Shown here piece by piece: positions 14,842 through 31,337 of a DNA stretch of 39,534 nt (position 1 is the stretch's first letter; each line of letters starts with the position of its first letter). The stretch is from Nitrospirota bacterium. Lineage in GTDB: Bacteria > Nitrospirota > Nitrospiria > Nitrospirales > Nitrospiraceae. The notes under the pieces are model-generated. The model saw only the letters and a program-made list of their open reading frames with translations. It had not been told where the DNA came from and did not search any database. The stretch covers positions 1 through 39,534 of the forward strand of contig JAGWTI010000025.1 in the NCBI GenBank assembly GCA_028876065.1. The letters run 5' to 3'. A program made the position numbers and the translations under genes.

Positions 14842-15507
14842 TCATCGGTCGCTCGAAGTATAGCCCCGAGTCTCTTGTGACACAAGCTTTGCGGCTTCGA
14901 TGAACGCCCGGACTTTGGCTTGGTCCTTTTTACCCGGGCTGGCTTCGACCCCGCTGCTCACATCCACGCCATAGGGCCGGACGCGTTGAATCGCGTCGCG
15001 GACGTTCTCCGCCGTCAGCCCGCCGGCCAGGAGCACCGGGGCATGTCCGGCCACTTCCGCAGCCAGGGCCCAGTCCCCCACTTCGCCCGTTCCGCCATAG
15101 GCAGTCGAGGAGAAGGCATCCACGACAAAGCCGCGCACGCCGGCCCGTCCTTTGAACTCCGCCAGGCCGAGCAAGTCGGCCGGACCACGGAGCCGGAAGG
15201 CCTTGAGCACGGGCCGGCCCAAGCTCTCGCAATAGGCCGCCGTCTCATCCCCGTGGAGCTGGGCCAGAGCCAAGCCGCACGCATCCATGAGGTCGCGGAC
15301 CTTTTTGGCTTCCTCATTGACGAAGACCCCGACCGGCAGTACGAACGGCGGCAGTCCGGCCACGATACGCTTCACCAGCGGAGCGTCCACGCAACGGGGG
15401 CTCTTGGCATAGAACACGAAACCCAGCGCATCGGCCCCCGCGTCGACGGCAGCGGCCGCATCGTCCGCGTTCGTGATCCCGCAGATTTTGACTTTGATGG
15501 GGCTCAT
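14842..15507 (-). CDS. trpF: Phosphoribosylanthranilate isomerase
   Basis: A 221-residue TIM-barrel enzyme for step three of tryptophan synthesis (Amadori rearrangement of phosphoribosylanthranilate). The catalytic cysteine is in VKICGITNADDA and the catalytic aspartate in GFVVDAFS. Phosphate-binding parts are VLLAGGLTAENV and YGVDVSSGVEASPGKKD. The start is ATG 15507 (MSPIKVKICG), which overlaps the methyltransferase stop (ATGA); a 22-codon upstream extension would run deep into that gene and does not resemble TrpF. It sits between the methyltransferase and trpB, separated from trpC by the accessory block. Confidence 0.95.
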   Translation of the reverse strand: MSPIKVKICGITNADDAAAAVDAGADALGFVFYAKSPRCVDAPLVKRIVAGLPPFVLPVGVFVNEEAKKVRDLMDACGLALAQLHGDETAAYCESLGRPVLKAFRLRGPADLLGLAEFKGRAGVRGFVVDAFSSTAYGGTGEVGDWALAAEVAGHAPVLLAGGLTAENVRDAIQRVRPYGVDVSSGVEASPGKKDQAKVRAFIEAAKLVSQETRGYTSSDR

Positions 15508-16304
15508 GCGTCTGCATACCCGATCGCGTCGACGAACGTTTGGGCGAACAGGACCGCCGGCTGCTTGGCCCATTGCCGCAACGCCCGGCAGAGGTCCCCG
15601 ACTTCGGCCCGGCTCAGCCCCGGCCCGGCGACAATCTGTTTCCCCACTCCTTCTTCAATGCGCTGCGCGAGGAGCTCGGCGGCCAGCGGCACGTCCTCGT
15701 AGCAATCGTAGATCGCCGACAGACGGATGCGCGAGAACCCGGCTTCCTGCAAGAGGCATCCGAATTCACGTCCCACGTAGGGATTGCCCCCATTCCGTTG
15801 CTGGATCGCCTTGTAGACCTGGACGGCCTGCTCGACTTCCGGATCGCGCGGCGCCATGAGGTTGCCGGACCAATCGGGGCTGGACAGGGCGGCGATCCCG
15901 CCGGGACGCAGCACCCGTTTAATCTCCTCCAACGCGGCCAGCGGCTCGCCCAAATGTTCGAAGAGGGCATGGGAGAAGACCGCATCGAAGGAACGATCAG
16001 GAAACGGCAATTGATAGACGCTGGCGACTTTCCATTCGACGTTCTTCGTCCCGCGTTGCCGGGCTGTCGTTCGGGCCGCTTCGATCTGGGACTCCTCAAG
16101 GTCCATCCCCGTCACCGGGCCCGGCGCCACGGCTTCGGCCAAGCCCACCGTAATCGTCCCAGGTCCACAGCCACAGTCCAGCACCGTCATGCCAGACTTC
16201 AGTTGCGGCAGCAAAAAGCCCGCGTCGCGCCCCGCATGGCGGCGCCTCATGTACCGCACCGCCACGTCGCTGTAGCCGACCGTATACGTCTCTCGTGTAT
16301 CCAT
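15504..16304 (-). CDS. Class I SAM-dependent methyltransferase
   Basis: A 266-residue methyltransferase with a Rossmann-like fold. Motif I is VLDCGCGPGTITVGLAE, the acidic residue of motif II is in VTGMDLEESQIEAA, motif post-I/IV is FDAVFSHALFEHLGEPLAAL, followed by IKRVLRPGGIAAL. It resembles the UbiE/Methyltransf_11 group; the substrate cannot be predicted. The start is ATG 16304, with GTG directly upstream (16307) as an alternative. The stop overlaps the trpF start by 4 bp, so its product is made together with trpF. Nothing in the sequence ties it to tryptophan synthesis, and its place may be historical. Confidence 0.85.
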   Translation of the reverse strand: MDTRETYTVGYSDVAVRYMRRRHAGRDAGFLLPQLKSGMTVLDCGCGPGTITVGLAEAVAPGPVTGMDLEESQIEAARTTARQRGTKNVEWKVASVYQLPFPDRSFDAVFSHALFEHLGEPLAALEEIKRVLRPGGIAALSSPDWSGNLMAPRDPEVEQAVQVYKAIQQRNGGNPYVGREFGCLLQEAGFSRIRLSAIYDCYEDVPLAAELLAQRIEEGVGKQIVAGPGLSRAEVGDLCRALRQWAKQPAVLFAQTFVDAIGYADA

Positions 16305-16339
16305 CACCTGTCCAACCGCCCGGGCTCTAACGCCAGGCT

Positions 16340-17128
16340 CTACCGAACGGGGCAGAAGCTGATTCGGGCGCCGCCCGTGTCGCGCGGGACAAGAACTCGG
16401 CCGAGCCCGCGGATGCCTTCGTCATAAAAAGGCACGCCTCGGGCCTCCCAATCACGAGCCAGACCGGCCACATCCTGGGTCAGCAACGCCACCATCTGCA
16501 CTCCGTCTCCCGAAAAGCTCTGCGAAAGATGAATCGCCCCCCGCTGGAGCGAAAACTTCCCCTCGGCCGGTCGCTCGCCCACCAGTTGCGTGTAGGCCGT
16601 GATGGCCGGCTGCACATCGGAGGCTCCGACCTCCACCCAGCCCACTCGCGTCGCGCCACCGAGCCCTTCGCTCGGCGGAGGCACGCGCAACTGGCGCGGC
16701 GTCAGGTCCTGGATCAGAAACGGCAGCCGGGGATCATCTGGATGGGCGGTCCGCCAGGAGACCTGCTGCCCGTCGGGCCGGACCCGCCCCCCGGGAGGCG
16801 CCTTGGCCACCTCCAACCCACGGTCCCGGATCGTCGGCACATCGCCGTTCACATCATCGCTCTCCAGCGCAAACCCCACCAGCCGGTTGGGCTTGGCCAG
16901 GGCCTCCAGCACCTGCTGCCCGAAGGGAAACTGCTGCGCCAGCTCCGGCTTCTTCACCCCGATCAACTCCAGATAGCAGCCATCGGAAAGCGACACCAGG
17001 GCATTGTGCGTCCCGACCGTCGGATGCTCCCCGCCGACCAGGACCTGAAACCCCAATCGGCGATAGACCTCGATCGCCTTGGCGAGATCTTCCACTGCGA
17101 TCAAGATATGGTCAATGCCAGCAATCAT
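16340..17128 (-). CDS. VOC-superfamily (glyoxalase-like) protein
   Basis: A 262-residue protein whose first half begins with the typical VOC module: IDHILIAVEDLAKAIEVYRRLGF, followed by GTHNALVSLSDGCYLELIGV. This pattern fits the Glyoxalase_3-like (PF13468) group, where a His and a Glu serve as metal ligands; His7 and the Glu of YLELIGV are candidates. The second half (after VPPPSEGLGGATR) forms a second, weaker module. The reaction is unknown; members include dioxygenases, isomerases and resistance proteins. It lies 35 bp upstream of the methyltransferase gene and 21 bp downstream of the AT-rich PLD-like gene. Its base composition is that of the host, so it is on the native side of the insertion boundary. 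Confidence 0.8.
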   Translation of the reverse strand: MIAGIDHILIAVEDLAKAIEVYRRLGFQVLVGGEHPTVGTHNALVSLSDGCYLELIGVKKPELAQQFPFGQQVLEALAKPNRLVGFALESDDVNGDVPTIRDRGLEVAKAPPGGRVRPDGQQVSWRTAHPDDPRLPFLIQDLTPRQLRVPPPSEGLGGATRVGWVEVGASDVQPAITAYTQLVGERPAEGKFSLQRGAIHLSQSFSGDGVQMVALLTQDVAGLARDWEARGVPFYDEGIRGLGRVLVPRDTGGARISFCPVR

Positions 17129-17149
17129 AGCAAGCCGGATTCGCCATCC

Positions 17150-17656
17150 CTATATCTCGACCTTTGCCTTTTTCCACTCATTAGTCCACTGCTTCCGTAG
17201 TTCATCAACAACGAGCGTCTCTTCAATTCGGGAGAACATGAATCCACGACGACCAAGATCTTTGATTGAAGCTCCAAAATGATAGAAGTCTCGGTCATCT
17301 ATAATTACAAATCGATCATGGAAGACATCAGACGTACGAACCGACAACATTCCATACGGTTTATTGAATGCAATAGCGAGTGTCCTAAACGAATCCGAAA
17401 TTGATTTTGTCAAAACGCTCACCTCAACAGATGCCCCCTTGGATGCAATCAAGTTGAGCACATTATGGTCTATATAACCGTCGATAATGACGACACTCCG
17501 CCTGGCAGACGACAGGATTTCTTTTACGCACTGGAGTGCATCAAAATACTGTCCGGCAAAAAAGACTCCCTCGCTCGTAACCTTAAGCGAAGGAGTCGTG
17601 TCGGTTTTTGTGTCCGATATAACATCAAGACAATAGTCTAAATCTTGCAGCAGCAA
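17150..17656 (-). CDS. PLD-like domain protein, C-terminal part of a gene split by a stop codon
   Basis: A 168-residue ORF (TTG start) carrying a phospholipase-D-like half: VVIIDGYIDHNVLNL followed by FHDRFVIIDDRDFYHFGAS and IKDLGRRGFMFSRIEE. The HDRF replaces the canonical HxK of catalytic PLD enzymes, as in many DNA-associated or defence-associated PLD-like proteins. The frame is open upstream for 11 more codons (GRGYIERSSIA) back to an in-frame TAA at 17690-17692, which also ends the zinc-ribbon ORF 17690-18088 in the same frame. The two are probably halves of one 312-codon gene broken by a nonsense mutation. Base use is far more AT-rich than in neighbours (23 of 60 G+C in 17281-17340), a sign of recent transfer. 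Confidence 0.6.
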   Translation of the reverse strand: MLLQDLDYCLDVISDTKTDTTPSLKVTSEGVFFAGQYFDALQCVKEILSSARRSVVIIDGYIDHNVLNLIASKGASVEVSVLTKSISDSFRTLAIAFNKPYGMLSVRTSDVFHDRFVIIDDRDFYHFGASIKDLGRRGFMFSRIEETLVVDELRKQWTNEWKKAKVEI

Positions 17657-17689
17657 TGCAATGCTGGAACGTTCAATGTACCCACGGCC

Positions 17690-18088
17690 TTAATAGTCGG
17701 TTGTCCCACTCGATTTGGGCACTTCGCGAATCGGCAAATCACCAAAAATGTCCTTATGCTGCATCCGCAAAGTGTCACGGAGCGAAACATATCGAGTAAA
17801 CAGGTCAAGCACAACTTGTGGATCGAAGTACAGCGCCAAGGGATGTTCAATCAATTTCGCGGTCGTATTGCGCAAGGCCCTTAGTCTAGCTCGAATCTTC
17901 TGCTGCCCCCCAACCCCTTCATTGATCAAGGCACCAGCATGGATCAATCTGATAGTTTCTACATTCGTTATTCCTAGCTTAACTTCATGTTTAGCCCCAC
18001 ACTGAGGACAGTTCCACGGGCCATTGTAATTCCACCAGCTACTTGGAGCATCAGAAGTTTTGCTGCAGGCCTGGCATTGAATATCCAT
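17690..18088 (-). CDS. Zinc-ribbon protein, N-terminal part of the split PLD-like gene
   Basis: A 132-residue ORF with an N-terminal zinc ribbon (Cys5, Cys8, Cys27, Cys30: CQAC and CPQC) and a helical remainder ending KSSGTTDY, TAA. The following codons, in the same frame, read GRGYIERSSIALLLQDLDYC and lead into the PLD-like ORF without frameshift. A single substitution from a sense codon to TAA would therefore explain both ORFs. It has its own ATG at 18088. It could still be a separate gene with the PLD-like protein reinitiated at TTG 17656. AT-rich composition marks it as foreign. Function is not known. Confidence 0.55.
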   Translation of the reverse strand: MDIQCQACSKTSDAPSSWWNYNGPWNCPQCGAKHEVKLGITNVETIRLIHAGALINEGVGGQQKIRARLRALRNTTAKLIEHPLALYFDPQVVLDLFTRYVSLRDTLRMQHKDIFGDLPIREVPKSSGTTDY

Positions 18089-18107
18089 ACGTATCAGAGG
18101 AAAATGT

Positions 18108-18240
18108 TCAAGAACGATTTTGGTGCGTCTGACTGCACCCCAGTAATTCTCGAATCTTGTCCCCTGTGTCCTCCGCCTTGATCAACGCCTCCCCGATCAG
18201 CATGGCCTGGCAGCCGGTTCCCATTATCCGCGCAGCCCGG
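18108..18240 (-). pseudogene. trpC': Duplicated 3' fragment of trpC
   Basis: Minus-strand translation of 18137-18240 gives RIMGTGCQAMLIGEALIKAE and DTGDKIRELLG. This closely matches the C-terminus of the intact TrpC upstream (RVMGAGCQAMLIGESLIRAD, then DTGKKIRELLG). DNA identity by eye is about 80 percent, so it is not a recent copy. It begins immediately after the antitoxin stop codon, has no start codon of its own, runs into unrelated sequence after LLG, and stops at TGA 18108-18110. It marks a recombination scar: the toxin-antitoxin pair lies exactly between the two trpC ends. Confidence 0.8.
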
Positions 18241-18513
18241 TTACGCAATCTGCTTCGCAAACCGCAAGACGGGGACGGTCATGTGACGAACCTTCCGCAA
18301 CCCGTTTGATTTGCCTAACAGACTTGCAAGGTAGCCACCGATCTCCGCCTTCACGACCCGCTCTCCGCATTGCGGACATACGCCTGCAGGGACTTTTTCA
18401 ATGACGAGGAGTTTTCCTTTAATCCAAAATTCCTGATCGATCCGCTTTTCCTGAAGCCGCTCCCCGCACACATGACAATCGCCATAGTCATATTTGACGC
18501 GTGATGCTTTCAC
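18241..18513 (-). CDS. YgiT-type zinc-finger protein, probable antitoxin
   Basis: A 90-residue protein with a two-knuckle zinc finger: CHVCGERLQEK and VCPQCGERVV (two CxxC pairs), as in the N-terminal domain of MqsA/YgiT antitoxins. The C-terminal helix-turn-helix domain of MqsA is absent, so it may neutralise its partner without strong operator binding. It starts with GTG 4 bp after the DUF4258 gene stop, with GGGGTGAGA upstream. DUF4258 plus YgiT-type zinc-finger gene pairs are a recurring arrangement, usually read as a type II toxin-antitoxin module. Its stop codon abuts the trpC fragment. Confidence 0.78.
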   Translation of the reverse strand: MKASRVKYDYGDCHVCGERLQEKRIDQEFWIKGKLLVIEKVPAGVCPQCGERVVKAEIGGYLASLLGKSNGLRKVRHMTVPVLRFAKQIA

Positions 18514-18517
18514 CGTC

Positions 18518-18796
18518 TCACCCCACCAGATAGGTTGTAATGAACAGCAGCTTGCCGGTTTCCTTCATCCGACAGATGATCGCAACTTTTCGCCCATCAC
18601 TCGCTCGGCCAACAACTTCAAAACGTAACCCTCTGGGCTCACTCGCAAACCGTCTCCTTATCCGGCCGGTCATGACCGCTTGCTCGATATCCGAAAAGAC
18701 CAAATCATCATTTGCCATCTCTTCGAAGAAATGCGGAATCGCAAACTCAAACTCTCCGTTCCGGACTTTCTCTCGAATCTTGCTGATAAGAGCCAA
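18518..18796 (-). CDS. DUF4258 protein, probable toxin
   Basis: A 92-residue protein of the DUF4258 family: N-terminal helix IREKVRNGEFEFAIPHFFEE, the segment FSDIEQAVMTGRIRRRF, and strands RFEVVGRASDGRKVAIICR and LLFITTYLV. Members resemble small RelE/BrnT-like folds and are often paired with YgiT-type antitoxins; RNase activity is suggested for relatives but cannot be seen here. It begins with TTG, supported by GAGG 6 bp upstream, only 21 bp after the trpC stop. It would therefore be expressed from the trp operon, unless it has its own promoter. The toxin gene precedes the antitoxin gene, as in MqsRA and HigBA systems. Confidence 0.75.
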   Translation of the reverse strand: MALISKIREKVRNGEFEFAIPHFFEEMANDDLVFSDIEQAVMTGRIRRRFASEPRGLRFEVVGRASDGRKVAIICRMKETGKLLFITTYLVG

Positions 18797-18817
18797 GAGT
18801 GTCCTCTTCGACGTCGC

Positions 18818-19639
18818 CTATCCCTCAACCTTTTGAAGCATGCCCAACAATTCTCGAATCTTCTTCCCTGTGTCATCAGCTCGAATCAGGGACTCCCCGA
18901 TCAGCATGGCTTGGCAGCCGGCGCCCATGACGCGCTTCACGTCGTCCCGCTTGTGAATGCCGCTCTCGCTCACGATCACCTTGCCGGTGGGAATGCGCTT
19001 GGCCAGCCGCTCGGTCACGCCCAAGTCCGTCGAAAACGTCTTGAGGTCCCGGTTGTTGATCCCGATCAACCTGGCGTCCGGCAGCCGCTCCAGGACCGTA
19101 TCCAGTTCCCGCTCGTGGTGCGTTTCAATAAGAACATCCAACGAGAGCTCCTGCGCGAGCGCGAAGAAGTCTATGAGCTGCCGCCGCTCCAGCGCCGCCA
19201 CGATCAACAGCACGGCATCGGCCCCATAAGCCCGTGCCTCGTAGAACTGAATGTCGTCCACCATGAATTCTTTGTTCAGACAGGGCAGCCCGACTTTGTC
19301 CTTGATCGCCTGGAGATAGTCCAGCTCTCCCTGAAAAAAATCCTTGTCCGTCAGGACCGACAAGGCCGAGGCCCCATGTTCCTTATACTGTTCCGCGATC
19401 TTCACCGGTTCGAAGAGATCCTTGAACTCCGGCCGCAGCAATCCCAGGCTGGGCGAAGCTTTCTTCACCTCGGCGATGAGGGATGGGCTATTGGGCGGGC
19501 GGGTCGCCTTGAGGGCTTGCATGAACCCCCGCGTCGCGCCCCGGTCGCGGATTCTGGACTTCAGCTCGACCAGATACCCGCGACTCTGCTTGTGCCGCAC
19601 CTCCGCTTTCTTATGTTCCAGGATTCGATCGAGAATCAT
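18818..19639 (-). CDS. trpC: Indole-3-glycerol phosphate synthase
   Basis: A 273-residue TIM-barrel enzyme that closes the indole ring (step four of tryptophan synthesis). Typical motifs: LIAEVKKASPSLGLLRPEF (catalytic lysine), ALSVLTDKDFFQGELDYLQ, PCLNKEFMVDDIQFYEARA (second lysine), LIGINNRDLKTFSTDL, VSESGIHKRDDVKRV and AMLIGESLIRADD. It is complete, ending KVEG, TAG. A diverged copy of its last 35 codons lies at 18137-18240 beyond the toxin-antitoxin genes. It starts 31 bp downstream of trpD. Confidence 0.96.
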   Translation of the reverse strand: MILDRILEHKKAEVRHKQSRGYLVELKSRIRDRGATRGFMQALKATRPPNSPSLIAEVKKASPSLGLLRPEFKDLFEPVKIAEQYKEHGASALSVLTDKDFFQGELDYLQAIKDKVGLPCLNKEFMVDDIQFYEARAYGADAVLLIVAALERRQLIDFFALAQELSLDVLIETHHERELDTVLERLPDARLIGINNRDLKTFSTDLGVTERLAKRIPTGKVIVSESGIHKRDDVKRVMGAGCQAMLIGESLIRADDTGKKIRELLGMLQKVEG

Positions 19640-19670
19640 CCTCGACTCTCTCTTCCCTTCGCGCGCCCGT

Positions 19671-20687
19671 TCACTTCTTGTTCGTAAACGCGATCAACCG
19701 CTCCAGCTTCTCGTAGGCCGCGCCGCTCTTGATCACTTTGCCCGCCAACTCGTACCCTTCTTGCAGCGTCTTGGCCTTGCGGCCCGCCACGAAGGCCGGC
19801 GCAGCGTTGAGACACACGATGTCCCGCTTGGGACCAGGCCGCCCTTGCAAAATTTCGCGCAGGATGCGCGCGTTGTCCTCGGCCGTGCCCCCCGCCAGTT
19901 CTTTCGCACGAACCCGGTCCAGCGAAAAATCGCTCGGCTCGACGAAATAGGTCGAGACCACCCCGCCCTTGCCTTCCGACACCTTCGTCCGATCCGTCAG
20001 CGTGATCTCGTCCAACCCGTCCATGCCATGGACGATGAAACAATGTTGCGTGCCCAGCCCCAGCAACACCTTGGCCATCAGCTCGGTGAGGCGTTCGTCA
20101 TAGACTCCCAGCACCTGAAATCCGGCCCGCGCCGGGTTGGACATGGGCCCCATGATGTTCAGCAGCGTCCTGATGCCCAGTTCCTGGCGAACCGGCGCGC
20201 AATGCTTCATCGCCCCATGGAACAACGGCGCAAAGAGAAATCCGATGCCCACTTCGTTGATGCAGTCCGCCACCCGCTCGGCGGGAAGATCGATCTTCAC
20301 CCCCAGCGCGCTCAGCACGTCCGCGCTGCCGGAGCGGGAGGACACGGCCTTGCCTCCATGCTTGGCCACGGTCAGCCCGCCGCCCGCCGCCACGAAGGCG
20401 ACCGTCGTCGAGATATTGAACGTGTGGGCCCCGTCCCCGCCGGTTCCGCAAGTGTCCACCACCAGGGGATCGGCGACCCGGATGCTGGTCGCTTTGGCCC
20501 GCATAGCCCGGACAGATCCGGCGATCTCGTCCACCGTTTCGCCTTTGAGGCGCAACCCCATGAGGTAGGCGGCAATCTGAGCAGGGGTGGCCACCCCGCT
20601 CATGATCTCCAGCATGACCTCCTCGGCTTCTTTCTCCGAGAGGTGCGTCCTGTCTGCGAGCTTGGCGATGGCGTCTTTAATGACCAT
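19671..20687 (-). CDS. trpD: Anthranilate phosphoribosyltransferase
   Basis: A 338-residue enzyme that transfers phosphoribose from PRPP to anthranilate. The N-terminal helical domain has SEKEAEEVMLEIMSGVATPAQ. The PRPP/anthranilate site has VDTCGTGGDGAHTFNISTT, KHGGKAVSSRSGSADVL, and RTLLNIMGPMSNPA. Length is typical. It is a single-function TrpD not fused to TrpG. The ATG (20687) has no visible Shine-Dalgarno; heptad array C ends 14 bp upstream, filling the spacer to trpG. Confidence 0.96.
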   Translation of the reverse strand: MVIKDAIAKLADRTHLSEKEAEEVMLEIMSGVATPAQIAAYLMGLRLKGETVDEIAGSVRAMRAKATSIRVADPLVVDTCGTGGDGAHTFNISTTVAFVAAGGGLTVAKHGGKAVSSRSGSADVLSALGVKIDLPAERVADCINEVGIGFLFAPLFHGAMKHCAPVRQELGIRTLLNIMGPMSNPARAGFQVLGVYDERLTELMAKVLLGLGTQHCFIVHGMDGLDEITLTDRTKVSEGKGGVVSTYFVEPSDFSLDRVRAKELAGGTAEDNARILREILQGRPGPKRDIVCLNAAPAFVAGRKAKTLQEGYELAGKVIKSGAAYEKLERLIAFTNKK

Positions 20688-20701
20688 AAAGAGGCTAGGA
20701 C

Positions 20702-20778
20702 GCTCTCAGCGTTCAGCCTTCAGCATGAATGCTCCGCCCCAAGCTGACGGCTGATTGATGACGGCTGACGGCTTACAG
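20702..20778. repeat. Heptad repeat array C (11 units)
   Basis: Consecutive 7-bp units between trpG and trpD: gctctca, gcgttca, gccttca, gcatgaa, tgctccg, ccccaag, ctgacgg, ctgattg, atgacgg, ctgacgg, cttacag. The right half inverted reads gccgtca, matching gccttca/gcgttca of the left half. The last unit contains the trpG stop codon (20773-20775). The unit resembles that of array E. Confidence 0.78.
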
Positions 20779-21336
20779 TTTCAGAAAATTCCGGAGCAGA
20801 TCCATGCCGACCGCCGTCAGGATGGATTCGGGATGGAACTGGACCCCTTCGACGCCCAACGTCTTGTGGCGCAGTCCCATGATCTCCCCTTCGGCGGTCT
20901 CAGCCGAGACTTCCAAGCAGTCCGGCAGGTTGGCCCGATTCACCAGCAGGGAATGGTACCGGGTCGCTTCGAAGGGGTTGGCCAGGCCATGGAAAATGGT
21001 TTTGCCGTCGTGGTGGATCATGGAGGTCTTGCCGTGCATCAGCCGCCCGGCCCGGATTACTTCGCCCCCGAAAGCCGCGGCCAAAGACTGATGCCCCAGA
21101 CAGACGCCCAGGATCGGGAGCCGGCCGGCAAACCGCTGGATCGCGGCCACCGACACCCCCGCCTCGTTCGGCGTACAGGGCCCCGGCGAGATGACCATCC
21201 GCTTCGGTTTCAGCGCGGCGATCTCGTCCAACGTGATCTTGTCGTTCCGGTAAACCCGGACGTCTTCCCCCAGTTCACCCAGATACTGCACCAGGTTGTA
21301 GGTGAAGGAATCGTAATTGTCGATCATCAGTAGCAT
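20773..21336 (-). CDS. trpG: Anthranilate synthase component II (glutamine amidotransferase)
   Basis: A 187-residue class I glutamine amidotransferase that supplies ammonia to TrpE. The N-terminal segment [20 protein letters not shown] is typical. The catalytic Cys is in [15 protein letters not shown] and the His-Glu pair in [21 protein letters not shown] is the conserved turn. In many bacteria this subunit also serves as PabA. It is separated from trpE and trpD by heptad arrays D and C, and its ATG (21336) lacks a Shine-Dalgarno sequence. Confidence 0.96.
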
Positions 21337-21346
21337 AACAATAAGC

Positions 21347-21444
21347 GCCTATGGCTTATGGCGAATGGCCGATGGTTAACGACGAGAGAGCCGTTCGTCT
21401 CCGTTCCTTGCTTGCCATTGGCCATACGCCATTTGCTCCTCTCC
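21347..21444. repeat. Heptad repeat array D (14 units)
   Basis: Fourteen 7-bp steps between trpE and trpG: gcctatg, gcttatg, gcgaatg, gccgatg, gttaacg, acgagag, a degenerate centre, then gcttgcc, attggcc, atacgcc, atttgct, cctctcc. Outer units stay in the same 7-bp phase across the degenerate centre. The right part inverted (ATGGCGTATGGCCAATGGC) matches the left part. It runs from the trpE stop to 10 bp before the trpG ATG. Confidence 0.75.
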
Positions 21445-22952
21445 TATTCCAGCCCCTGCTCCGCCAACTCGATCGCCTTCATCATGGCCTTGGCTTTGTT
21501 GCAGGTCTCTTCGTACTCGCGCGCCGGATCGGAGTCGGCCACGATGCCGGCCCCAGCCTGAATATAGGCCTGCTTCCCCTTGATCACGATCGTGCGGATG
21601 TTGATACAGGTGTCCATGTTGCCGGAGAAGCTGAAATAGCCGACGGCCCCCGCATAGGGTCCGCGTCTGGTCGGCTCCAGTTCCTCGATGATCTGCATCG
21701 CCCGGATTTTAGGCGCGCCGGAGACGGTGCCGGCCGGAAAGCAAGCCTGCATCACGTCGTAGGCCGTCTTCGTCGGTTCCAATTCGCCCTGCACGTTGGA
21801 GACCAGGTGCATCACATGGGAATAGCGCTCCACCGTCATGAGCGCATCCACCTTGACGGTGCCCTTCTTCGCCACCCGCCCGATGTCGTTGCGGCCCAGG
21901 TCCACGAGCATCACATGCTCGGCCCGTTCCTTCGCATCCGCCAGCAATTCCCGCTCCAGCATCCGGTCCTGCTCCTCGGTCGTTCCGCGTTTTCTGGTTC
22001 CGGCGATCGGCCGCACCGACACCTTGCCGTCCTCGCAATGCACCAGGATCTCCGGCGACGACCCCACCAGTTCGACGCCGCCGACGCGCAGGTAATACAT
22101 GTACGGCGAGGGATTGACCAGCCGCAGCGCCCGGTAAATCTCGAACGGCGCGGTTTGAATGCGCGTTTCCCACCGTTGCGACAGCACCCCTTGGAAGATG
22201 TCACCGGCTTTGATGTACTCCTTGGTCTTCACCACCATCTTCTCGAAGTCCGCTCGGCTCATATTCGACGCGAAGGCGATAGGTTTGCGGCGCCGCTTGG
22301 GGCTGGCGCGGCGCAACGGCCGCCGCAGGCGCGCGATCATCCGTTCGATGCGGGCCGTCGCGTCGGCATAAGCCCGCTTCAGGTCGGATTCCTTGCTCGA
22401 CGGCACATGGGCGTTCGCCACGACTTTGATTTTCTGCGCGACGTTGTCGAAAATCAGCAGCGTATCGGTGATCAGAAACGCCAGATCCGGCAGCCCCAAC
22501 GCATCCTTGCGGCGCGCCGGAATGTCTTCCCAGTACCGCACAATGTCGTACCCCAGGTAACCGACCGCCCCGCCCACGAACCTCGGGAGGCCCGGGACCG
22601 TGACCGGGTGATAGGCGGCCATGATGTCGCGCAGCCGATCCAGGGGCGTCTCGCCCGGTTTCTCCGAAATCGGCAGGCGTTGCACCTTCTTCCCCTGGAC
22701 GATCAGCAACGTCCCCCGTTCCTCGCGGATGACGATCGGCGATCCGCTGCCGAGGAAGGAGTAGCGGGCCCAGTTTTCTCCCCCTTCCACACTTTCCAGG
22801 AGGTAGGCGGAGGGACCATGGTCGATCTTGGTAAAGGCGGAGACAGGCGTCTCGAAGTCGGCCAGGATTTCGCGGTACAGGGGAATGAGATTCCCCTGCG
22901 AGGCCAGGGCGCGGAACTCCTCGAAACTCAACGAAAAGGAAGGGGTTTTCAT
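21444..22952 (-). CDS. trpE: Anthranilate synthase component I
   Basis: A 502-residue enzyme that converts chorismate to anthranilate with ammonia from TrpG: the first committed step. The N-terminal part has the canonical TrpE opening (FEEFRALASQGNLIPLYREI) and the tryptophan feedback site LLESVEGGE. The chorismate-binding domain contains GDIFQGVLSQRWE, FEIYRALRLVNPSPYMYYL, ELVGSSPEILV, RPIAGTRKRG, VMLVDLGRNDIGRV, and PAGTVSGAPKIRAM. Feedback inhibition by tryptophan is expected from the LLES motif. GAGG directly abuts the ATG, too close to act as a normal SD. It is the first gene of the trp operon. Confidence 0.96.
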   Translation of the reverse strand: MKTPSFSLSFEEFRALASQGNLIPLYREILADFETPVSAFTKIDHGPSAYLLESVEGGENWARYSFLGSGSPIVIREERGTLLIVQGKKVQRLPISEKPGETPLDRLRDIMAAYHPVTVPGLPRFVGGAVGYLGYDIVRYWEDIPARRKDALGLPDLAFLITDTLLIFDNVAQKIKVVANAHVPSSKESDLKRAYADATARIERMIARLRRPLRRASPKRRRKPIAFASNMSRADFEKMVVKTKEYIKAGDIFQGVLSQRWETRIQTAPFEIYRALRLVNPSPYMYYLRVGGVELVGSSPEILVHCEDGKVSVRPIAGTRKRGTTEEQDRMLERELLADAKERAEHVMLVDLGRNDIGRVAKKGTVKVDALMTVERYSHVMHLVSNVQGELEPTKTAYDVMQACFPAGTVSGAPKIRAMQIIEELEPTRRGPYAGAVGYFSFSGNMDTCINIRTIVIKGKQAYIQAGAGIVADSDPAREYEETCNKAKAMMKAIELAEQGLE

Positions 22953-22958
22953 CCTCGA

Positions 22959-22987
22959 AAACTAGCATGCACCCTGCGCAAAGTCAA
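22959..22987 (-). promoter_or_regulatory. Candidate trp operon promoter
   Basis: On the minus strand TTGACT (22987-22982) and TAGTTT (22964-22959) are 17 bp apart, with an extended TGC just before the -10 element. The -35 matches five of six consensus positions, the -10 only three. The expected transcription start would fall at or very near the trpE ATG (22952), implying a leaderless mRNA and no room for a leader-peptide attenuator. No tRNA-like T-box or Trp-rich leader ORF was seen in 22953-23091. Confidence 0.3.
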
Positions 22988-23091: not shown

Positions 23092-24906
23092 TCAGCTTGG
23101 CTTCGGCGCAGTCCCGCGGAAAGAAGAGGCGCGCCAGGCATTGACGATCCGCTCGCGATCGGCGTCCGCGCACCGGGTGAATTCGATCCCGAGCTTGCAA
23201 TAGTCTTTCCCCTTGTCGTCGACAAGTTTCAGGACGTGCACCACCTTGCCCCCCACGTCGGTCAGCTTCTGACCGTTCGGCAGGCTGAACGACAAGGTCA
23301 CCTCGGTCCCCAGCGGGAAGACCTCTCGCGTGCTGAGCTGCACGCCGCCCCGGCTGATATTCTTGATGGAGCCCTGGTACATGCGACTGCTCGTGGCGTC
23401 CCGATAGATCGCAAAGAGCGAGACTTCGAGGCGGTCATGACGGCGGAGGTTTTTCTTGTCCGTGTCCGACGGTTCTCGCTCCAGCAGATCGAACACGGCG
23501 TAGGGCTCCACCAGGCCGGTGCGCCCCTTGACCTGCACGGGCGGCAGCTTGTCCGCTTTGACCAGGTCCTTCACCTGCTGATAGGTCGCCTCGCTGATCA
23601 CGATGCCGTCGGCCGGCGCCAAGGGCTCCAGGCGCGCCGCCACGTTCACCGTATCCCCGACCACGGTGTAGTCCAGACGCGACGGAGACCCGATATTGCC
23701 GGCCACGACCTGCCCGCTGTTGACGCCGATGCGCATGTGAAACCCTTGCAGGCCCTCCTGTTCCGCCTTCTCCCGCAAGCGTTTCGCCTCTTGCTGCATC
23801 TCGATGGCCGCCGCCACCGCCTTGCTCGCATGGTCGGGCATGGCCACCGGCGCCCCGAAGACGGCCATGATCGCGTCGCCGATGAACTTGTCCAACGTGC
23901 CCTGGTGACGGAACACGATGTCCGTCATGGCCGTGAAGTATTCGTTCAGCACGCGCACGACCTGTTCCGGGTCCAGGTTTTCGGACAAGGGGGTGAATCC
24001 GCAGATATCGGCGAAGAGCACCGAACAGTCCAGCTTGGTCCCCCCCAGTTTGAGCGTCCCCTCCTTGCTCTTCATCACGTCGTCCACCACGTTGGGCGAC
24101 AGGTATCGCTGGAGACTCATCCGGGCCTTGGTCTCGGTCTGGACGCTCTCATACAGACGGGCGTTCTCGATGGCGATGGCCGCCTGGTTGGCGATGCCCG
24201 CGAGCAGCTCCACGCTGTCCTCGGTGAACGCGCCGGCCACGATCCGGTTGTCGACGTAGATCACGCCGATGACCTCGCCGCTCTTGGCTTTCAGCGGCAC
24301 GCAGACCAGCGAGGACAGGTTGTGCGCCATCACGCTCTGCATGCCCTGAAACTGGTTCTCGCTCTGCGCATCGGTGGCCAGGATGGGTTTGCCTTCGCTG
24401 GCCACCTTGCTGCAAATATTCGTGCTGATGGTCAGCCGCGATTCCGTCCCGGCCTGGGACTCCGTCGTCATGTCGCGGGCCGCGTGCACGGTCAACTCGC
24501 CGGTCACCGCATCCTTGAGCATCAGCAGCCCGCGCTCGGCGAACATGGCCTTGATCACCACGTCCATGATCAGGTCCAGCAGCTTGTCCATCGTCAGGAC
24601 GGAATTGATCATGCGGCCCACTTCGGCCAACGTCGTCATCTCGCGCTGCGCCCGACTCAGCCGTTCCATGTTGCCCTTGAGCCCCCGCAAGGCATCCCCC
24701 AGGCTGCGGAGGGAGTCCAAGGCCGGCTGATAGGTCGGCGCAGCGGTCTGCACGTGGGTGCGCATCTGTCCGAGGCCGGCTTCGAAGCGAGCGAGGGCGC
24801 TCTTGAGGCCTCCGTAGTGCAAGACATGCACGCGGCAGCGCCCGCAATAGACGACGGCCGGTTGCTCGTAGCCGCAATGCGGGCAGGCGATCTGTTCGTC
24901 GCTCAT
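23092..24906 (-). CDS. Zinc ribbon-GAF-class III nucleotide cyclase-PilZ protein
   Basis: A 604-residue multidomain signalling protein. Order: zinc ribbon (CPHCGYEQPAVVYCGRC, about 7-26); helical linker; GAF domain (about 100-260, with IYVDNRIVAGAFTEDSVELL); a class III adenylate/guanylate cyclase domain (about 285-460) with metal-binding Asp300 in VLFADICGF, DKFIGDAIMAVFG, and YTVVGDTVNVAARLE; then a PilZ domain (about 480-600) with RRHDRLEVS and NISRGG, which fit the RxxxR...(D/N)xSxxG c-di-GMP-binding motif. It could make cAMP under control of a GAF ligand and c-di-GMP. The start is ATG 24906 (GGAG 8 bp upstream); a longer frame to 24984 would overlap the kinase gene. It lies 55 bp after the kinase gene. 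Confidence 0.9.
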   Translation of the reverse strand: MSDEQIACPHCGYEQPAVVYCGRCRVHVLHYGGLKSALARFEAGLGQMRTHVQTAAPTYQPALDSLRSLGDALRGLKGNMERLSRAQREMTTLAEVGRMINSVLTMDKLLDLIMDVVIKAMFAERGLLMLKDAVTGELTVHAARDMTTESQAGTESRLTISTNICSKVASEGKPILATDAQSENQFQGMQSVMAHNLSSLVCVPLKAKSGEVIGVIYVDNRIVAGAFTEDSVELLAGIANQAAIAIENARLYESVQTETKARMSLQRYLSPNVVDDVMKSKEGTLKLGGTKLDCSVLFADICGFTPLSENLDPEQVVRVLNEYFTAMTDIVFRHQGTLDKFIGDAIMAVFGAPVAMPDHASKAVAAAIEMQQEAKRLREKAEQEGLQGFHMRIGVNSGQVVAGNIGSPSRLDYTVVGDTVNVAARLEPLAPADGIVISEATYQQVKDLVKADKLPPVQVKGRTGLVEPYAVFDLLEREPSDTDKKNLRRHDRLEVSLFAIYRDATSSRMYQGSIKNISRGGVQLSTREVFPLGTEVTLSFSLPNGQKLTDVGGKVVHVLKLVDDKGKDYCKLGIEFTRCADADRERIVNAWRASSFRGTAPKPS

Positions 24907-24961
24907 CTCACGCGCTCCACGGAAGGTGTATTCGGACCAGGCCTCCTGAACGGCGCACGGC

Positions 24962-27382
24962 TCAACCGAGCGCCTGCACGTCACGCCCCATGGCTTCCAT
25001 GCTCGGATAACGGTCCTCGGGCCGTTTGGCCAGCGCCGTCATCACGATCGCGTCAAGCGCCGCGGGCACGGCGGGATTGAGCACGCCGGGCAACGTCGGG
25101 GTTTCATGGATTTGCCGGTAGGCGATGTCCCCTTCGTTGAACGGGACGGAGCCGGTGAGCAACTCGTAGAGCATGATCCCCACCGCATATTGGTCGGTCC
25201 GGCCGTCCACCGTCTTGCCCAGGATCTGTTCGGGCGCCATGTAGCGGGGCGTGCCCATGACTTGGCCCGCCCTGGTCATCCCGCCGCCGCCTTCTTCGAT
25301 CCGCGCCAGGCCGAAATCAGCGATCTTGATTCCCCCGCCCTTGCCCGTCAGGATATTGTCCGGTTTGATATCCCGGTGAACGACTCCCTGTTTGTGCGCA
25401 TAGCCCAAGGCGTCGCAGATCTGCGCGGCGAGCACCAGCACCTGTTTGACCGGCCAGGGGCCCTTCTTGAGCTCGTCCCGTAAATTCCCCCCCTCGACGA
25501 ACTCCATCGCGATGTAGATCGGCTCTTTGACGTGAATGTCGTATATCGCCACGATGCTGGCATGACGCAAATGGCTGGCCGCCTGCGCCTCGCGGATGAA
25601 CCGCGCCACGGCCTCGTTGTCGTACTGAAAGTCCTTTTTGATAAATTTCAGCGCCACGGCCCGCTTGAGCACCCGGTCCTGCGCACGGAAGACCGATCCC
25701 ATCCCGCCTTCCCCGATTTTTTCGATCCGGTCATAGCGCTCGCGAACCACCGCCATCGGATCGGCCTGGGGGGCCGGCGTCGCGAAGGGGGCCGGGCTCA
25801 GCGCCGGGTTCGCGGAGGGGGTTTGGACCGGCAGCTGCCGGAGCCGCTGCGCCACGTCCCGGTAGTTCACATCGATCTCCACCGTCCGCTTGTAATAGTC
25901 CCTCGCTTTGTCCGGCTGGCCGATCCGTTCGAAGGTCATGCCGATCTCGTACCAGAACTGCGCCTTCACGCTCTCGGGCAAGGCCAGACGGCCCAATTTG
26001 TCGAACTGGTTCTCCGCCAAGTCGATCAGGCCCTGACGCAGAAAGATGAAGCCGAGGCGGAACAGGGCGTCCGGCTGGTGGGGGGAATTCGGCTTGGCCA
26101 GTTGCTGATAGACCGCGATAATTTTCTCGTCGGGTTCGCCCTGCTTGACGTACAGCTCGCCCAACTCGCTGAGCAAGGCAAAGGCCTCCTGTTCGGAGAG
26201 CAGGCCGCTTTTCAGCCGTTCCTCCATGTCGTAGATCCGCTGCGGCCCCATGACCGACGCCAACTGATCCAGCTGCGCCCGATAGCCAGGATTGGTGGGG
26301 TCGAGCAGCAAGAGCAGTTCGAGCAAGGCATGGGTGGCATCCAATTCGCCGGTGTCGGCATGGTCCTGCGCGGCGGCGGCCAGGATCCGCTCCAATTCCA
26401 CCCGTAGCGGCTGGGAGGCGCGGGCGGTCTGGAGCACGGCCTGTACCCGCGCCCGGGCGGCTTCCGCCCCTCCGCGCCGCAAGGCGAGCGACAGCAGTTC
26501 CGCCTGGAGCGGGACATTGTCCGGGCGCTGGGTGGCCACCCGCTCGAGCCGGGTCTGGACGAGGTCCGCCTTCCCCGGCGACATCTCCATCAGCTGGCGA
26601 TACTCCTGCAGCGCCTTGTCCCACTGCCCCCGCTCCAGCAGGAGGTCGGCCAGAAACCAGCGCGTGGCGTCATCGTCGGGATGGCTTTGCGCATAGGTCG
26701 TGAACAGCTCCATGGCCTTGGCGTCCTGCCCCTCGAATTGATAGTAGAACCCGAGGCGAAAGAGATCGGCCTGGTCCTTGGCGCCGCCCCGCACGGCTTT
26801 CTCCCACCCCTCCACCTGATCCTTGAGCTGGCCCCGCTTCTTGAGCACTTCGATGACGAGACGATGGGCCTTGGAGTTTCGGGGAAACTTCTCCGTAACC
26901 GTCTGCAGACCTTTCAGCACGAGGTCCGCCCGGTCCGGGCGCCATTTCCAGAGCTGCTCATATTCGTTGACCGCTTGATCGGCATGGCCGCGGGCCACGT
27001 GGATCTGCGCCGCACGGTGGAACTTGTCGGACAGGTTGCCTTTCAGGAACCGCAGCCGCTCGAAGACCCGCAACGCCTCATCGTAGTTGCCTCGGGCAAA
27101 GTAGGTCTCCCCCTGCACCAAGTGATAGCGCATGTACCGGACGCCCAGCTCGCTGACCTGCCGAGATAAGTCCTGGACCGGATTGACCTCGTTGATCTTT
27201 TGGCAAATCTGGTGGGCCTCGGTCAGCATCTTCTTGTGGTAGTAGGCCTCGGCCAGGTCGTTGAGGGCCTTGATGTCCTGCGGATCGCTCTGCACCTGCT
27301 TGCGCGCGATGGAGATCACCGTGTCCCAGTCCCGCTGACTGTAGGCTTTTTCCCGCTTTTCAGCCAGCCCTAGTCCGAACAT
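24962..27382 (-). CDS. TPR-repeat Ser/Thr protein kinase
   Basis: An 806-residue protein with an N-terminal superhelix of tetratricopeptide-type repeats (about 1-530, for example AYYHKKMLTEAHQICQKINE and FARGNYDEALRVFERL). A Pro/Ala-rich linker (about 530-550) and a complete Hanks-type kinase domain (about 555-806) follow. Kinase residues: Gly loop IGEGGMGSVFRA, Lys579 in VALKFIKK, HRDIKPDN (His669-Asp671), DFG in IADFGLAR, and the activation-segment end GTPRYMAPEQ. The order (TPR first, kinase last) is the reverse of the usual PknB-like layout. No transmembrane segment is seen, so it is probably cytoplasmic. It precedes the cyclase-PilZ gene, a plausible partner or substrate. Confidence 0.92.
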   Translation of the reverse strand: MFGLGLAEKREKAYSQRDWDTVISIARKQVQSDPQDIKALNDLAEAYYHKKMLTEAHQICQKINEVNPVQDLSRQVSELGVRYMRYHLVQGETYFARGNYDEALRVFERLRFLKGNLSDKFHRAAQIHVARGHADQAVNEYEQLWKWRPDRADLVLKGLQTVTEKFPRNSKAHRLVIEVLKKRGQLKDQVEGWEKAVRGGAKDQADLFRLGFYYQFEGQDAKAMELFTTYAQSHPDDDATRWFLADLLLERGQWDKALQEYRQLMEMSPGKADLVQTRLERVATQRPDNVPLQAELLSLALRRGGAEAARARVQAVLQTARASQPLRVELERILAAAAQDHADTGELDATHALLELLLLLDPTNPGYRAQLDQLASVMGPQRIYDMEERLKSGLLSEQEAFALLSELGELYVKQGEPDEKIIAVYQQLAKPNSPHQPDALFRLGFIFLRQGLIDLAENQFDKLGRLALPESVKAQFWYEIGMTFERIGQPDKARDYYKRTVEIDVNYRDVAQRLRQLPVQTPSANPALSPAPFATPAPQADPMAVVRERYDRIEKIGEGGMGSVFRAQDRVLKRAVALKFIKKDFQYDNEAVARFIREAQAASHLRHASIVAIYDIHVKEPIYIAMEFVEGGNLRDELKKGPWPVKQVLVLAAQICDALGYAHKQGVVHRDIKPDNILTGKGGGIKIADFGLARIEEGGGGMTRAGQVMGTPRYMAPEQILGKTVDGRTDQYAVGIMLYELLTGSVPFNEGDIAYRQIHETPTLPGVLNPAVPAALDAIVMTALAKRPEDRYPSMEAMGRDVQALG

Positions 27383-28357: not shown

Positions 28358-29338
28358 ATGCACGAGCCAGCCGGAGACGGACCCCATAGCTCCCGTGGCA
28401 CAGCCAGAGCGGGCCGCTCGGTGCCGCTGGACGGGATCACGATCCACCTGGCCCAACCCATGGACTCCTCCGAGGAATGGATCGGCGAGCGGGAAATCCT
28501 CCGGCAGTTGCTGGCCTGCTGGCTCGTGATCGACGAGCGGGATCTGCCCCTGTCGCCCCGGATCACCGGACAACCGGGCATCGGCAAGACCACCTTGGCG
28601 ATGGCCGGCGCCCGCGAGCGCAAGCAGGACCTCTACATCGTCCAGTGCACCGCGGACACCAGGCCCGAAGATTTGTTGATCACGCCCGTGCTGGCGGAGT
28701 CCGGCACCATCGCCTACCATGCCTCGCCTCTCGTCACGGCCATGCTGACCGGCAGCGTCTGCGTGCTGGACGAAGGCAATCGGATGAACGAGAAAAGTTG
28801 GGCCTCGCTGGCCTCCCTGTTGGATCACCGGCGCTGCGTGGAATCCATCGTGGCGGGCCTCCTGATCAAGGCCCACGACGACTTCCGCTGTTGCGTCACG
28901 ATGAACGAAGACGCGTCGACGTACGAAGTCCCCGACTATATCCTCTCCCGCCTGCAACCGACGCTGAACATGGGATTCCCTCGCCGGGACGACGAATTGG
29001 CGATACTGCGCTACCACATGCCCTTCGCGCCGGGCGAGATGCTGGGCCTCACCGTGGATTTCCTGCAAGCGGCGCACCAACTGAATCTTGAATTCTCGGT
29101 CCGGGACGGCATTCATCTGTTGCAATATGCGCTCAAGCGGCTGGCACAAGACCAGGCCCATCCCCTGTCGAAAGACGAGGCCTGGCGGGAATCGCTGATC
29201 AAGGTGCTGGGCGAAGAAGCGTTGGACCTGGAAACCCTCTCGCGGCGGCGGAAACGGGCCCTGGGAGACCAGCCCCTGCTCCAAGGGTTGGGCGATTTTT
29301 TCTTCGAAGGGGACAACCCGTTGCACCCGGAACGATGA
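28358..29338 (+). CDS. MoxR-like AAA+ ATPase
   Basis: A 326-residue single-domain AAA+ ATPase. Walker A is GQPGIGKT (71-78), Walker [10 protein letters not shown] (Asp138, Glu139), sensor 1 lies in [10 protein letters not shown], and the arginine-finger region is [13 protein letters not shown]-terminal helical lid follows (about 225-326). The pattern is that of the AAA_5/MoxR group, which remodel partner proteins, usually encoded next door. ATG 28358 is chosen for GGAG 5 bp upstream; an in-frame ATG at 28334 has none. The next gene, 73 bp downstream, encodes a 641-residue protein of unknown function that is the likely partner. No VWA-domain gene with a MIDAS motif follows, which is unusual for this ATPase class. 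Confidence 0.85.
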
Positions 29339-29411
29339 ACGCCACAGGTAGCCGGCAAGGCGCCCTCCCAACTTGCCGGCTTGCCAGGTTCCACTCGAAC
29401 TGCTCACGCCG

Positions 29412-31337
29412 ATGGCTGAACTGACGACAACGACCGACGCCATCCTGCGCCTCTCCCCGAGCATTGAGGTCCTGCCGATCCTGCACGGAAGCGGCGACTT
29501 GGCCCAGGAAGTCCGCGAGGCCATGATCGCCCGCTCCGTCGATTGTCTGGCGGTACCCCTGCCGCCCTCGGTCGAGGGGGCGGTAGAGCAGGCCGTCGAA
29601 GCCTTGCCGGTCATTCGTCTCGTGGTGCTCCCGGAGCCGGATCAAGACGAGCCCCCCACGATCAGCTTCGTGCCCGTCGATCCCTGCCAGGCGGTCATCA
29701 TGGGCATCCGGGTCGCAATGGGTGAGGGCATCCCGCGCGCCTACATCGACCGGGAAGTCACCGTCTTCGAGCCGACGCCCTTCACGGCGCCGGACCCCTA
29801 CGCGCTCAAACGGATTTCGCTGGCCGCCTATGCCGCGGCGCTGATCCCTTCCCTCCCGCCGCCTCCTCCGGACGGGCAGCGCCGCCGTCGCATCGACTGG
29901 ATGGCGTTCCGCCTCCATGAGCTGGAGCTGGACTACGACTCCATCCTCTGCCTCTGCCACGTGGCCGATTGGCCTTGGCTGCGGGAAGCCTATCGGGAAC
30001 GGAGACCCTATGTCGCGCCGGAGCCCCGGACCCACCGCCCGACCCTGCTGCCCGTGTCCTCGTCAACCCTGTACTTTGCGCTCGGCGAGCTGCCGTTTGT
30101 GACCGAGCTCTATGAACGGCGGCGCGCCGAGGTCCGTTCGGACCGCCACCTGTCCGTGGACGGCATCAAGGAGCTGTTGCTGAGCGCCAGAACCCGCTGG
30201 GCCGACAGACACGGCCGCGAGAGCCAGTCGATCGCCAACTGGGTCACGCCCCATTTGCTGCAACGCTATCTCCAATATGTCCGGAACCTGGCCCTGCTGG
30301 ACCGCCGCCTGACCCCGGACCTCTACACCCTGGTCTTGGCCGCGAAGCAGATGGCGGGAGACGACTTCGCCATGACGCTGTTGGAAACGGCCAGAAGCTA
30401 TGCCTTCCAGAACGAGGCGCATCCGTTGGCCGCCCCCGCCCTGTCCGTCGGCATCGGCAAAGTGGAATGGCCGGACGGCCTCGTGGCGAACGCCAAGAAC
30501 CGACTCCAAGGGCCGGCGTTGGCCTGGCGTTCCCTCTCCCTCCGTCCCGCCCCCAAACCCCTCACCAGCCGCCGTTGGGCCCTGCAATGGAATCCGTTCC
30601 GGCAATGTTCCTGGCCGCCGGAGGACAACCGGATCGAAAGCTTCACGCACCATGTGCGGGAGCAGGCCCGGACAATCCTGGGCGCAGACCTGGCGCGTGT
30701 CGAGAAATTCACCAGCTCCGTCAAGGACGGAGTGGATCTGCGCGAAACCCTCCGTCACTGGCACCAAGTCAGGCGACGTCCGGGCGGCGCGGCCGACAAG
30801 CAGGCCGCCCGGCCCCGCATGGACATCTACGTCAAAGACATGCCCCCGGCCCGCGGCCAGGTGGAAGTGGTCCTGTTCCTGTTCGACACGCCGGCCGATC
30901 CGGCCCGCTATTCCTGGCAAGCCACCTGGTACGCCGAACACCAGGAGGAATCCACCCTCTGCTTCTACGCCAGCCCCTTCCAGGATCGGATGGTCGGGCC
31001 GGGCATCGCGCAGTCCTGCTACGGCGGCGCCTTGTTCCTGTTTCCGCCCAGACCGATCCCCAACGTGTGGGAGGACCCCCGGCTGCATTTTGCACGGACG
31101 TTGGAAGAGCGGCTCATCGCCGCCGGATCGCTGCACTCGCAGCAACCCCACATCGTCTTGGTCACGCCGGTCCCTCCGCCGGCCCGCTGGCGAAGGATCG
31201 CCCGGTCGTTCAATCGCCGGTTGGTCCCGATTCCGTTGAGCCGGTTTTCCGGACAGACCGTGGACCGGTTGCGCCGCTTCCATGTCCTCAACGGACACGA
31301 GATCCGGAGCTATGCGTCGAAATTTATCAGGGAATGA
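29412..31337 (+). CDS. Unknown 641-residue protein, probable partner of the MoxR-like ATPase
   Basis: I do not recognise this protein with certainty. The N-terminal about 120 residues (LPILHGSGDLAQEVREAMIA, VIRLVVLPE, FVPVDPCQAVIMGIRVA, GIPRAYIDRE) run parallel to the start of TraB/ChaN-like and DUF5682 proteins, where a His-Gly motif opens, a 'responsible for' helix follows, and GIP(V/R)xxID closes. DUF5682 proteins are typically encoded beside MoxR ATPases. The middle is helical (LRLHELELDYDSILCLCHVA-like and RYLQYVRNLALLDRRLTPDL). The C-terminal about 150 residues are beta-rich with VEVVLFLFDTP and CYGGALFLFPP; no MIDAS DxSxS is present. No signal peptide or membrane segment is seen. ATG 29412 is used; TTG 29373 is possible. 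Array E follows. Confidence 0.75.
   Translation: MAELTTTTDAILRLSPSIEVLPILHGSGDLAQEVREAMIARSVDCLAVPLPPSVEGAVEQAVEALPVIRLVVLPEPDQDEPPTISFVPVDPCQAVIMGIRVAMGEGIPRAYIDREVTVFEPTPFTAPDPYALKRISLAAYAAALIPSLPPPPPDGQRRRRIDWMAFRLHELELDYDSILCLCHVADWPWLREAYRERRPYVAPEPRTHRPTLLPVSSSTLYFALGELPFVTELYERRRAEVRSDRHLSVDGIKELLLSARTRWADRHGRESQSIANWVTPHLLQRYLQYVRNLALLDRRLTPDLYTLVLAAKQMAGDDFAMTLLETARSYAFQNEAHPLAAPALSVGIGKVEWPDGLVANAKNRLQGPALAWRSLSLRPAPKPLTSRRWALQWNPFRQCSWPPEDNRIESFTHHVREQARTILGADLARVEKFTSSVKDGVDLRETLRHWHQVRRRPGGAADKQAARPRMDIYVKDMPPARGQVEVVLFLFDTPADPARYSWQATWYAEHQEESTLCFYASPFQDRMVGPGIAQSCYGGALFLFPPRPIPNVWEDPRLHFARTLEERLIAAGSLHSQQPHIVLVTPVPPPARWRRIARSFNRRLVPIPLSRFSGQTVDRLRRFHVLNGHEIRSYASKFIRE

Follow-up and report, generated by a model that had tools for sequence, protein, structure and literature searches.

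MoxR ATPases are thought to reach their clients via VWA proteins and the MIDAS site that these proteins carry, and a gene for a VWA protein is usually, if not universally, found beside the ATPase gene, its presence not being decisive for MoxR membership. We investigated a locus in a 39,534-nucleotide stretch of Nitrospirota DNA (contig JAGWTI010000025.1; the whole analysed stretch is called the window below), which raises the question of how a MoxR-like ATPase might act on its clients when its partner gene encodes a large protein, P641, from a family without a name in the libraries searched. The first-pass annotation had proposed a two-gene remodelling system, in which this unrecognised partner would combine a DUF5682-like role with a new effector.

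The gene pair and its inheritance

The ATPase gene (28358..29338, plus strand, 326 aa) has an uncertain start, conservation setting in at about residue 20, and the P641 gene (29412..31337, 641 aa) begins 73 bases 3′ of it on the same strand. Both ORFs lie where the first-pass annotation had placed them, as do the flanking genes, a divergent LysM lipoprotein gene on one side and ligA downstream; a 470-aa minus-strand ORF overlapping the pair was dismissed as a high-GC shadow ORF. Further away in the window, a minus-strand run of trpE, trpG, trpD, trpC, trpF, trpB and trpA (12807-22961; named by sequence) shares its synteny with the pair and ligA in many Nitrospirales, and two adjoining genes, named by eye only, encode a GAF/adenylate-cyclase-like protein with a PilZ-like tail (23092-24984) and an 806-aa protein with a TPR-like N-terminus and a Ser/Thr protein kinase C-terminus (24962-27382). 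The ATPase exceeds the Pfam cut-offs of both AAA_5 (PF07728, E=1.2e-18) and AAA_3 (E=1.1e-7), and its Walker A, Walker B, sensor-1 Asn and arginine-finger candidate show no variation across 18 homologues; with domain, Walker motifs and sensor 1 intact, it belongs among the MoxR AAA+ ATPases. The solved structures nearest to its profile are midasin, CbbQ and NorQ. Membership of the YehL subfamily was rejected, as an hmmsearch with the profile (E<=10) recovers other MoxR ATPases and zero YehL members.

Homologues of P641, nearly all full-length and open and with 58-86% identity, are present in 30 of 61 relatives, which argues against a chance ORF. Its description as an unrecognised partner stands: P641 gave zero matches above threshold in Pfam, NCBIfam, PADLOC, PHROGs and the PDB, and falls into none of the known enzyme families in the libraries searched. 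In an hmmscan against Pfam, P641 and 44 relatives drew chance-level names only (RNase T2, Imm35 and others), the PDB sequence search gave no meaningful match, and searches of PADLOC and of nuclease/protease families gave none. Foldseek of the P641 model against the PDB likewise retrieved no significant match; the AF2 model used was built from 44 sequences (mean pLDDT 81, uncertain around 428-480) and supersedes an earlier one from 19 sequences (pLDDT 64), the C-terminus of which was unusable.

The two genes were neighbours in 20/20 Nitrospirales loci of the first set fetched. Of the 79 P641 loci returned by a scan of named genomes, which span Nitrospirota, Nitrospinota, Gemmatimonadota, Latescibacterota and Planctomycetota, 70 also contain the ATPase. 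Among the 61 relatives, where the ATPase was found in 29, both genes are present in 28, neither in 30, P641 only in two and the ATPase only in one; the three discordant relatives comprise two contig-edge fragments (G055 and G010, one P641-only and one ATPase-only) and a P641 remnant (G054). This decayed remnant (G054:C1:1638836-1639307) lies in a single-contig relative from which the ATPase is also missing, and the two genes appear to have been lost together there. In another relative, G017, the pair is present twice (C1:479557-482414 and C13:14081-16938). P641 is present in 59 of 392 Planctomycetes. Of seven Planctomycetes examined in which the P641 locus contains no ATPase, six encode it elsewhere in the genome. 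In divergent Planctomycete and chlamydial loci, the genes share one locus in 17/21 cases, including Neochlamydia sp. S13, where plasmid pS13 (L217, 9105-11818) bears a P641 homologue of ~26-28% identity directly after an AAA ATPase gene. This plasmid is large and non-mobilizable, and its P641 homologue has intact TIKI-type residues (see below). Genome-wide, P641 occurs without an ATPase orthologue in a complete Nitrospirota chromosome (CP070743.1; L056/G200) and in one Planctomycete (G195).

Within Nitrospirales, the presence of the pair is patchy and its setting is a stable housekeeping locus reaching from the trp genes to ligA. Since the trp genes, the LysM gene and ligA also keep their synteny with the pair in this order, part of the linkage reflects shared ancestry, and one could imagine that two unrelated genes became adjacent by chance and were kept together by this synteny only. 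We regard this as very improbable, given that the pair recurs beyond Nitrospirales, down to ~26% identity in Chlamydiota, and that the genes co-occur even when unlinked, which already contradicts it. Given the shared synteny within Nitrospirales, it is on the other phyla that the sequence-based case for coupling rests. Adjacency recurring across phyla, along with the co-occurrence in the 61 relatives, answers the concern that the pair might not be conserved; by these comparisons, the ATPase and P641 genes are a conserved two-gene unit, inherited together across several phyla.

A TIKI/TraB-fold domain and its active site

E. coli YehM is a DUF5682 (PF18934) protein of the yehLMPQ operon, in which YehP is the VWA and YehQ the SWIM protein. 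By profile alignment, fold and residues, P641 residues 16-193 (29457..29990, plus strand) form a predicted domain of TIKI/TraB fold, with homology to the DUF5682 N-terminus. In hhalign, the N-terminal 205 residues of P641 matched DUF5682 (YehM and 23 relatives) at 97.7% (P=1.6e-12, score 96.5), while column-shuffled controls reached at most 29.4 (0/100 matching the real score) and the YehP, YehL and YehQ controls all stayed below 5%. With 95 diverse sequences, the match covered residues 16-312 (97.1%, P=5.3e-11); it reaches residue 312 with the full profile, and the region 249-329 (30156..30398, plus strand), a helical stretch that weakly resembles an AAA lid or histone fold (VIA-align Z ~5 only), does not match by itself. 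P641 nonetheless lies below the Pfam cut-off: the best member of its family reaches E=0.028 and 13.2 bits against PF18934 (cut-off 26), and none among 148 Nitrospirota genomes has a PF18934 match over the gathering score. Hence, P641 is a remote homologue of DUF5682 rather than a member as curated. Moreover, a true DUF5682 gene occurs in addition to P641 in eight Planctomycete genomes, and the two systems are therefore distinct.

The fold comparisons point in the same direction. Against viral structures (BFVD), the best match of the AF2 model was a TraB family protein of Marseillevirus (prob 0.99, E 4.3e-3). In VIA-align, the top row for P641 residues 12-199 (29445-30008) was a Tetrahymena complex IV subunit (8b6h_DQ, Z 10.6), and the top rows also included HopBA1 (Z 7.2), PMT (6.4) and RRSP (6.3), all three members of the TIKI superfamily (PMC6254334); such Z values of 6-7 are moderate and were taken as evidence only jointly with the sequence homology. 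The Neochlamydia homologue reached E=0.0022 against TIGR00261, under the cut-off. Profile comparison against shuffled controls and predicted fold together confirm the N-terminus of P641 as a TIKI/TraB-fold domain remotely homologous to DUF5682, as the DUF5682/TraB-like opening read by the first-pass annotation had implied. Our literature search returned no paper naming DUF5682, and a paper on conflict systems (PMC7159879) mentions neither TIKI, TraB nor Yeh.

TIKI enzymes employ conserved His and Glu residues, and PMT has the TIKI fold without the catalytic motif (PMC6254334). The first His, H25 of P641, is present in 91/95 sequences, including that of the window, while the position equivalent to the Glu (49) holds Glu in 21/95 and that of the second His (186) holds His in 20/95, the window protein having P49 and D186 and thus lacking the His/Glu set of active TIKI members. 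The H/E/H set is retained in divergent Planctomycetes and Neochlamydia (19/42 tree rows). In a maximum-likelihood tree, one branch, with full support, separates the sequences in the degenerate state from the others; with the root assumed to lie outside the degenerate group, a single loss of the active-site residues, in the common ancestor of the clade to which the window belongs, is likely. The degenerate site makes an enzymatic DUF5682-like role unlikely in the window protein; of the earlier proposal, the two-gene unit and the N-terminal homology stand.

The same residues bear on the possibility that P641 is an effector enzyme regulated or loaded by the ATPase, in a conflict or defence module, with E509, E513 and their neighbours as active site. 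The extreme conservation of the C-terminal motifs, the intact TIKI-type residues of the divergent branch, the patchy distribution and the plasmid-borne copy in Neochlamydia would all suit such an enzyme. We nevertheless consider it unlikely, as the window's clade has lost the TIKI site, PADLOC and the nuclease/protease families give no match, and the Nitrospirales locus is a stable, housekeeping one between the trp genes and ligA.

The C-terminal part and the missing VWA protein

The most invariant positions of P641 fall in residues 381-641. The block 381-430 (30552..30701, plus strand; WxxxWNPxxQCSWPPEDxxIExF) is weakly colinear with DUF5682 430-475, its hhalign score exceeding 60/60 shuffles yet being low in absolute terms. 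It is followed by a nearly invariant segment at 433-450 (30708..30761, plus strand; FTxSxKDGxDxRETLRxW), a candidate pore finger which lies in a stretch of low pLDDT, as would be expected if it folds on a partner. Its KDG motif, considered as a ligase motif beside ligA, was rejected by eye, the spacing not fitting KxDGxR. The most conserved region by alignment and AF2 model, a predicted alpha/beta domain without MIDAS, covers residues 484-641 (30861..31334, plus strand) and contains the motifs TWxAExxESTLxFYA, VGPGI, YGG, PPRPIPDIW and FHVLNGHEIRSYA; in hhalign, residues 470-641 did not match DUF5682. In the model, the C-terminus previously called beta-rich consists, more exactly, of a beta-meander and, after it, an alpha/beta stretch. 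The absence of MIDAS noted earlier holds for the family, DxSxS being missing from every member inspected.

A VWA protein was also sought elsewhere. The host genome, rated 100% complete, gave no match to the two VWA models searched, PF05762 (VWA_CoxE) and PF13519 (VWA_2), or to DUF5682, and none to SWIM that reached the cut-off. No VWA gene lies in the neighbourhood of the window's ATPase, and in the neighbourhoods inspected the pair is not accompanied by any further conserved gene for an adaptor or a VWA protein; by eye, the unlinked Planctomycete ATPases have no recognised VWA neighbour, and a profile search of the divergent Planctomycete and chlamydial loci finds no YehP-like VWA. By these models, the genome lacks the VWA and SWIM genes of a yehLMPQ-type system, and the vWA component of a vWA-MoxR-VMAP ternary conflict system is missing from both the neighbourhood and the genome-wide search with the two Pfam VWA models. 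Neighbourhoods, co-occurrence and the whole-genome search together confirm the earlier reading of a unit of two genes that has no VWA or SWIM partner. In four Planctomycete loci (L134, L140, L143 and L152), longer true DUF5682 proteins are fused to a YehP-like VWA in one ORF, a precedent for a one-chain adaptor.

Possibly, the C-terminus of P641 is itself a degenerate, MIDAS-less VWA domain, in which case P641 would fuse the roles of YehM and YehP in a condensed yehLMP-type machine. The DGxDxRETLRxW motif lies ~186-207 aa from the C-terminus of P641, and a similar motif of YehP, NFDxxxTLRxNLxxW, which precedes its VWA domain, lies ~200-216 aa from that protein's end; the AF2 order of strands and helices after residue 484 (b-b-b-b-a-b-a-b-a-b-a) resembles a VWA domain minus helix 1; and the Planctomycete fusions, along with a genome without VWA_2 or VWA_CoxE matches, are consistent with this. 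However, hhalign of the P641 C-terminus against YehP is not significant even with 71 diverse sequences (shuffles as high in 5/150 for the finger and 16/150 for the domain), the MIDAS is missing, most of the conserved residues (TWxAExxEST, YGG, PPRP) find no equivalent in VWA domains, and no VWA chain appears among the VIA-align rows, which barely cover the C-terminal region. We give the fusion somewhat less than an even chance; the sequence and model features suggest such a VWA domain, equipped with a pore finger, and this reading would narrow down the adaptor explanation developed below. The new effector formerly seen in this C-terminus was not substantiated: the region is the most conserved of the protein and unplaced, and a degenerate VWA-like domain is an alternative reading of it.

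It could also be argued that P641 is an enzyme dependent on MoxR for its maturation, and hence the client of the ATPase rather than its adaptor. MoxR chaperones encoded in operon-like fashion with their clients are known from norCBQD and the cbb genes, and the ATPase is still present where it is unlinked from P641. We consider this quite improbable, considering that P641 matches no recognised enzyme family, that the TIKI site is degenerate in its clade, and that the neighbourhoods show no other conserved adaptor or VWA gene.

A possible mechanism and its relation to known systems

In NorQ-NorD, a finger of the VWA partner enters the pore of the ring, the C-terminus of the partner contacts the ring, and rotation driven by ATP remodels the client (PMC13036017; PMC9976466); McrC is cited as a non-VWA partner with the same finger-in-pore mode (PMC13036017). 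By analogy with the finger-in-pore mode of NorQ-NorD, we postulate, with a probability of roughly 0.6, that the pair is a self-contained MoxR-adaptor remodelling machine, in which P641 would be a dedicated adaptor with its TIKI-like domain facing the client and its C-terminus on the ring, taking over the role of the VWA protein. The ATPase would, as its family suggests, form a ring; the conserved C-terminal part of P641 would dock on it, probably via the DGxDxRETLR segment as pore finger, while the N-terminal TIKI/DUF5682-like domain, its catalytic-type residues gone in this lineage, may bind a target or ligand. P641 would thereby fill the role of the VWA proteins of NorQ-NorD, CbbQ-CbbO and RavA-ViaA, and the ATP-driven motion of the ring could twist or strain it so that a client protein is remodelled, perhaps for cofactor loading or reactivation; we infer ring assembly, physical contact, finger insertion and remodelling from these analogues. 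Against the adaptor explanation weigh the two genomes with P641 and no ATPase orthologue (L056/G200 and G195), the pore-finger and VWA-like profile matches that fall short of significance, the uncertainty of the AF2 model around 428-480, an ATPase other than the YehL type with which true DUF5682 proteins are paired, and the part of the Nitrospirales linkage that is shared ancestry.

More tentatively, we speculate that the pair represents a VWA-less MoxR family, found in at least six phyla, whose one adaptor chain consists of a mostly dead TIKI-fold domain and a pore plug of degenerate, VWA-like type; one protein may have taken over both the DUF5682 and the VWA role, and would then have lost the MIDAS and, in one branch, also the active site of the TIKI domain. 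A module of two genes that is widespread and works with neither VWA nor MIDAS would reveal which elements of the coupling are indispensable, and could serve as a minimal system for its study. Our findings also connect the TIKI fold with the uncharacterised yehLMPQ/DUF5682 group and provide a natural series that runs from an intact active site to a lost one; they further define P641 as a conserved family without a name in Nitrospira, relatives of Nitrospina and Planctomycetes.

Compared with known systems, the pair resembles NorQ-NorD, CbbQ-CbbO and RavA-ViaA (MoxR with a VWA adaptor) in joining a MoxR ATPase to one dedicated partner, and its ATPase profile matches CbbQ and NorQ; unlike NorD, CbbO and ViaA, P641 has a TIKI-fold N-terminus and no recognisable VWA domain or MIDAS. 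With the TIKI/TraB/EreA/ChaN superfamily (HopBA1, PMT C2, RRSP), P641 shares the fold of residues 12-199 and the first His, and, in its divergent branch, the Glu and second His; it departs from that superfamily in the loss of these two residues in the window's clade, in the long conserved C-terminal fusion and in the pairing with an AAA+ ATPase. McrB-McrC, an AAA+ ring with a non-VWA pore-finger partner, offers a precedent for coupling without VWA (PMC13036017), although we saw no sequence relation and P641 matches no nuclease family. With DUF5682/YehM, the pair shares a homologous N-terminal domain (16-193, extended to 312) and a MoxR gene alongside, whereas P641 stays under the Pfam cut-off, its highly conserved C-terminus is different, the window pair has no YehP-type VWA or YehQ-type SWIM gene, the ATPase is not of the YehL type, and both systems occur side by side in some Planctomycetes. 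Hence, the system of the window most likely works like a MoxR-adaptor pair, related to the yehLMPQ/DUF5682 group and standing outside of it.
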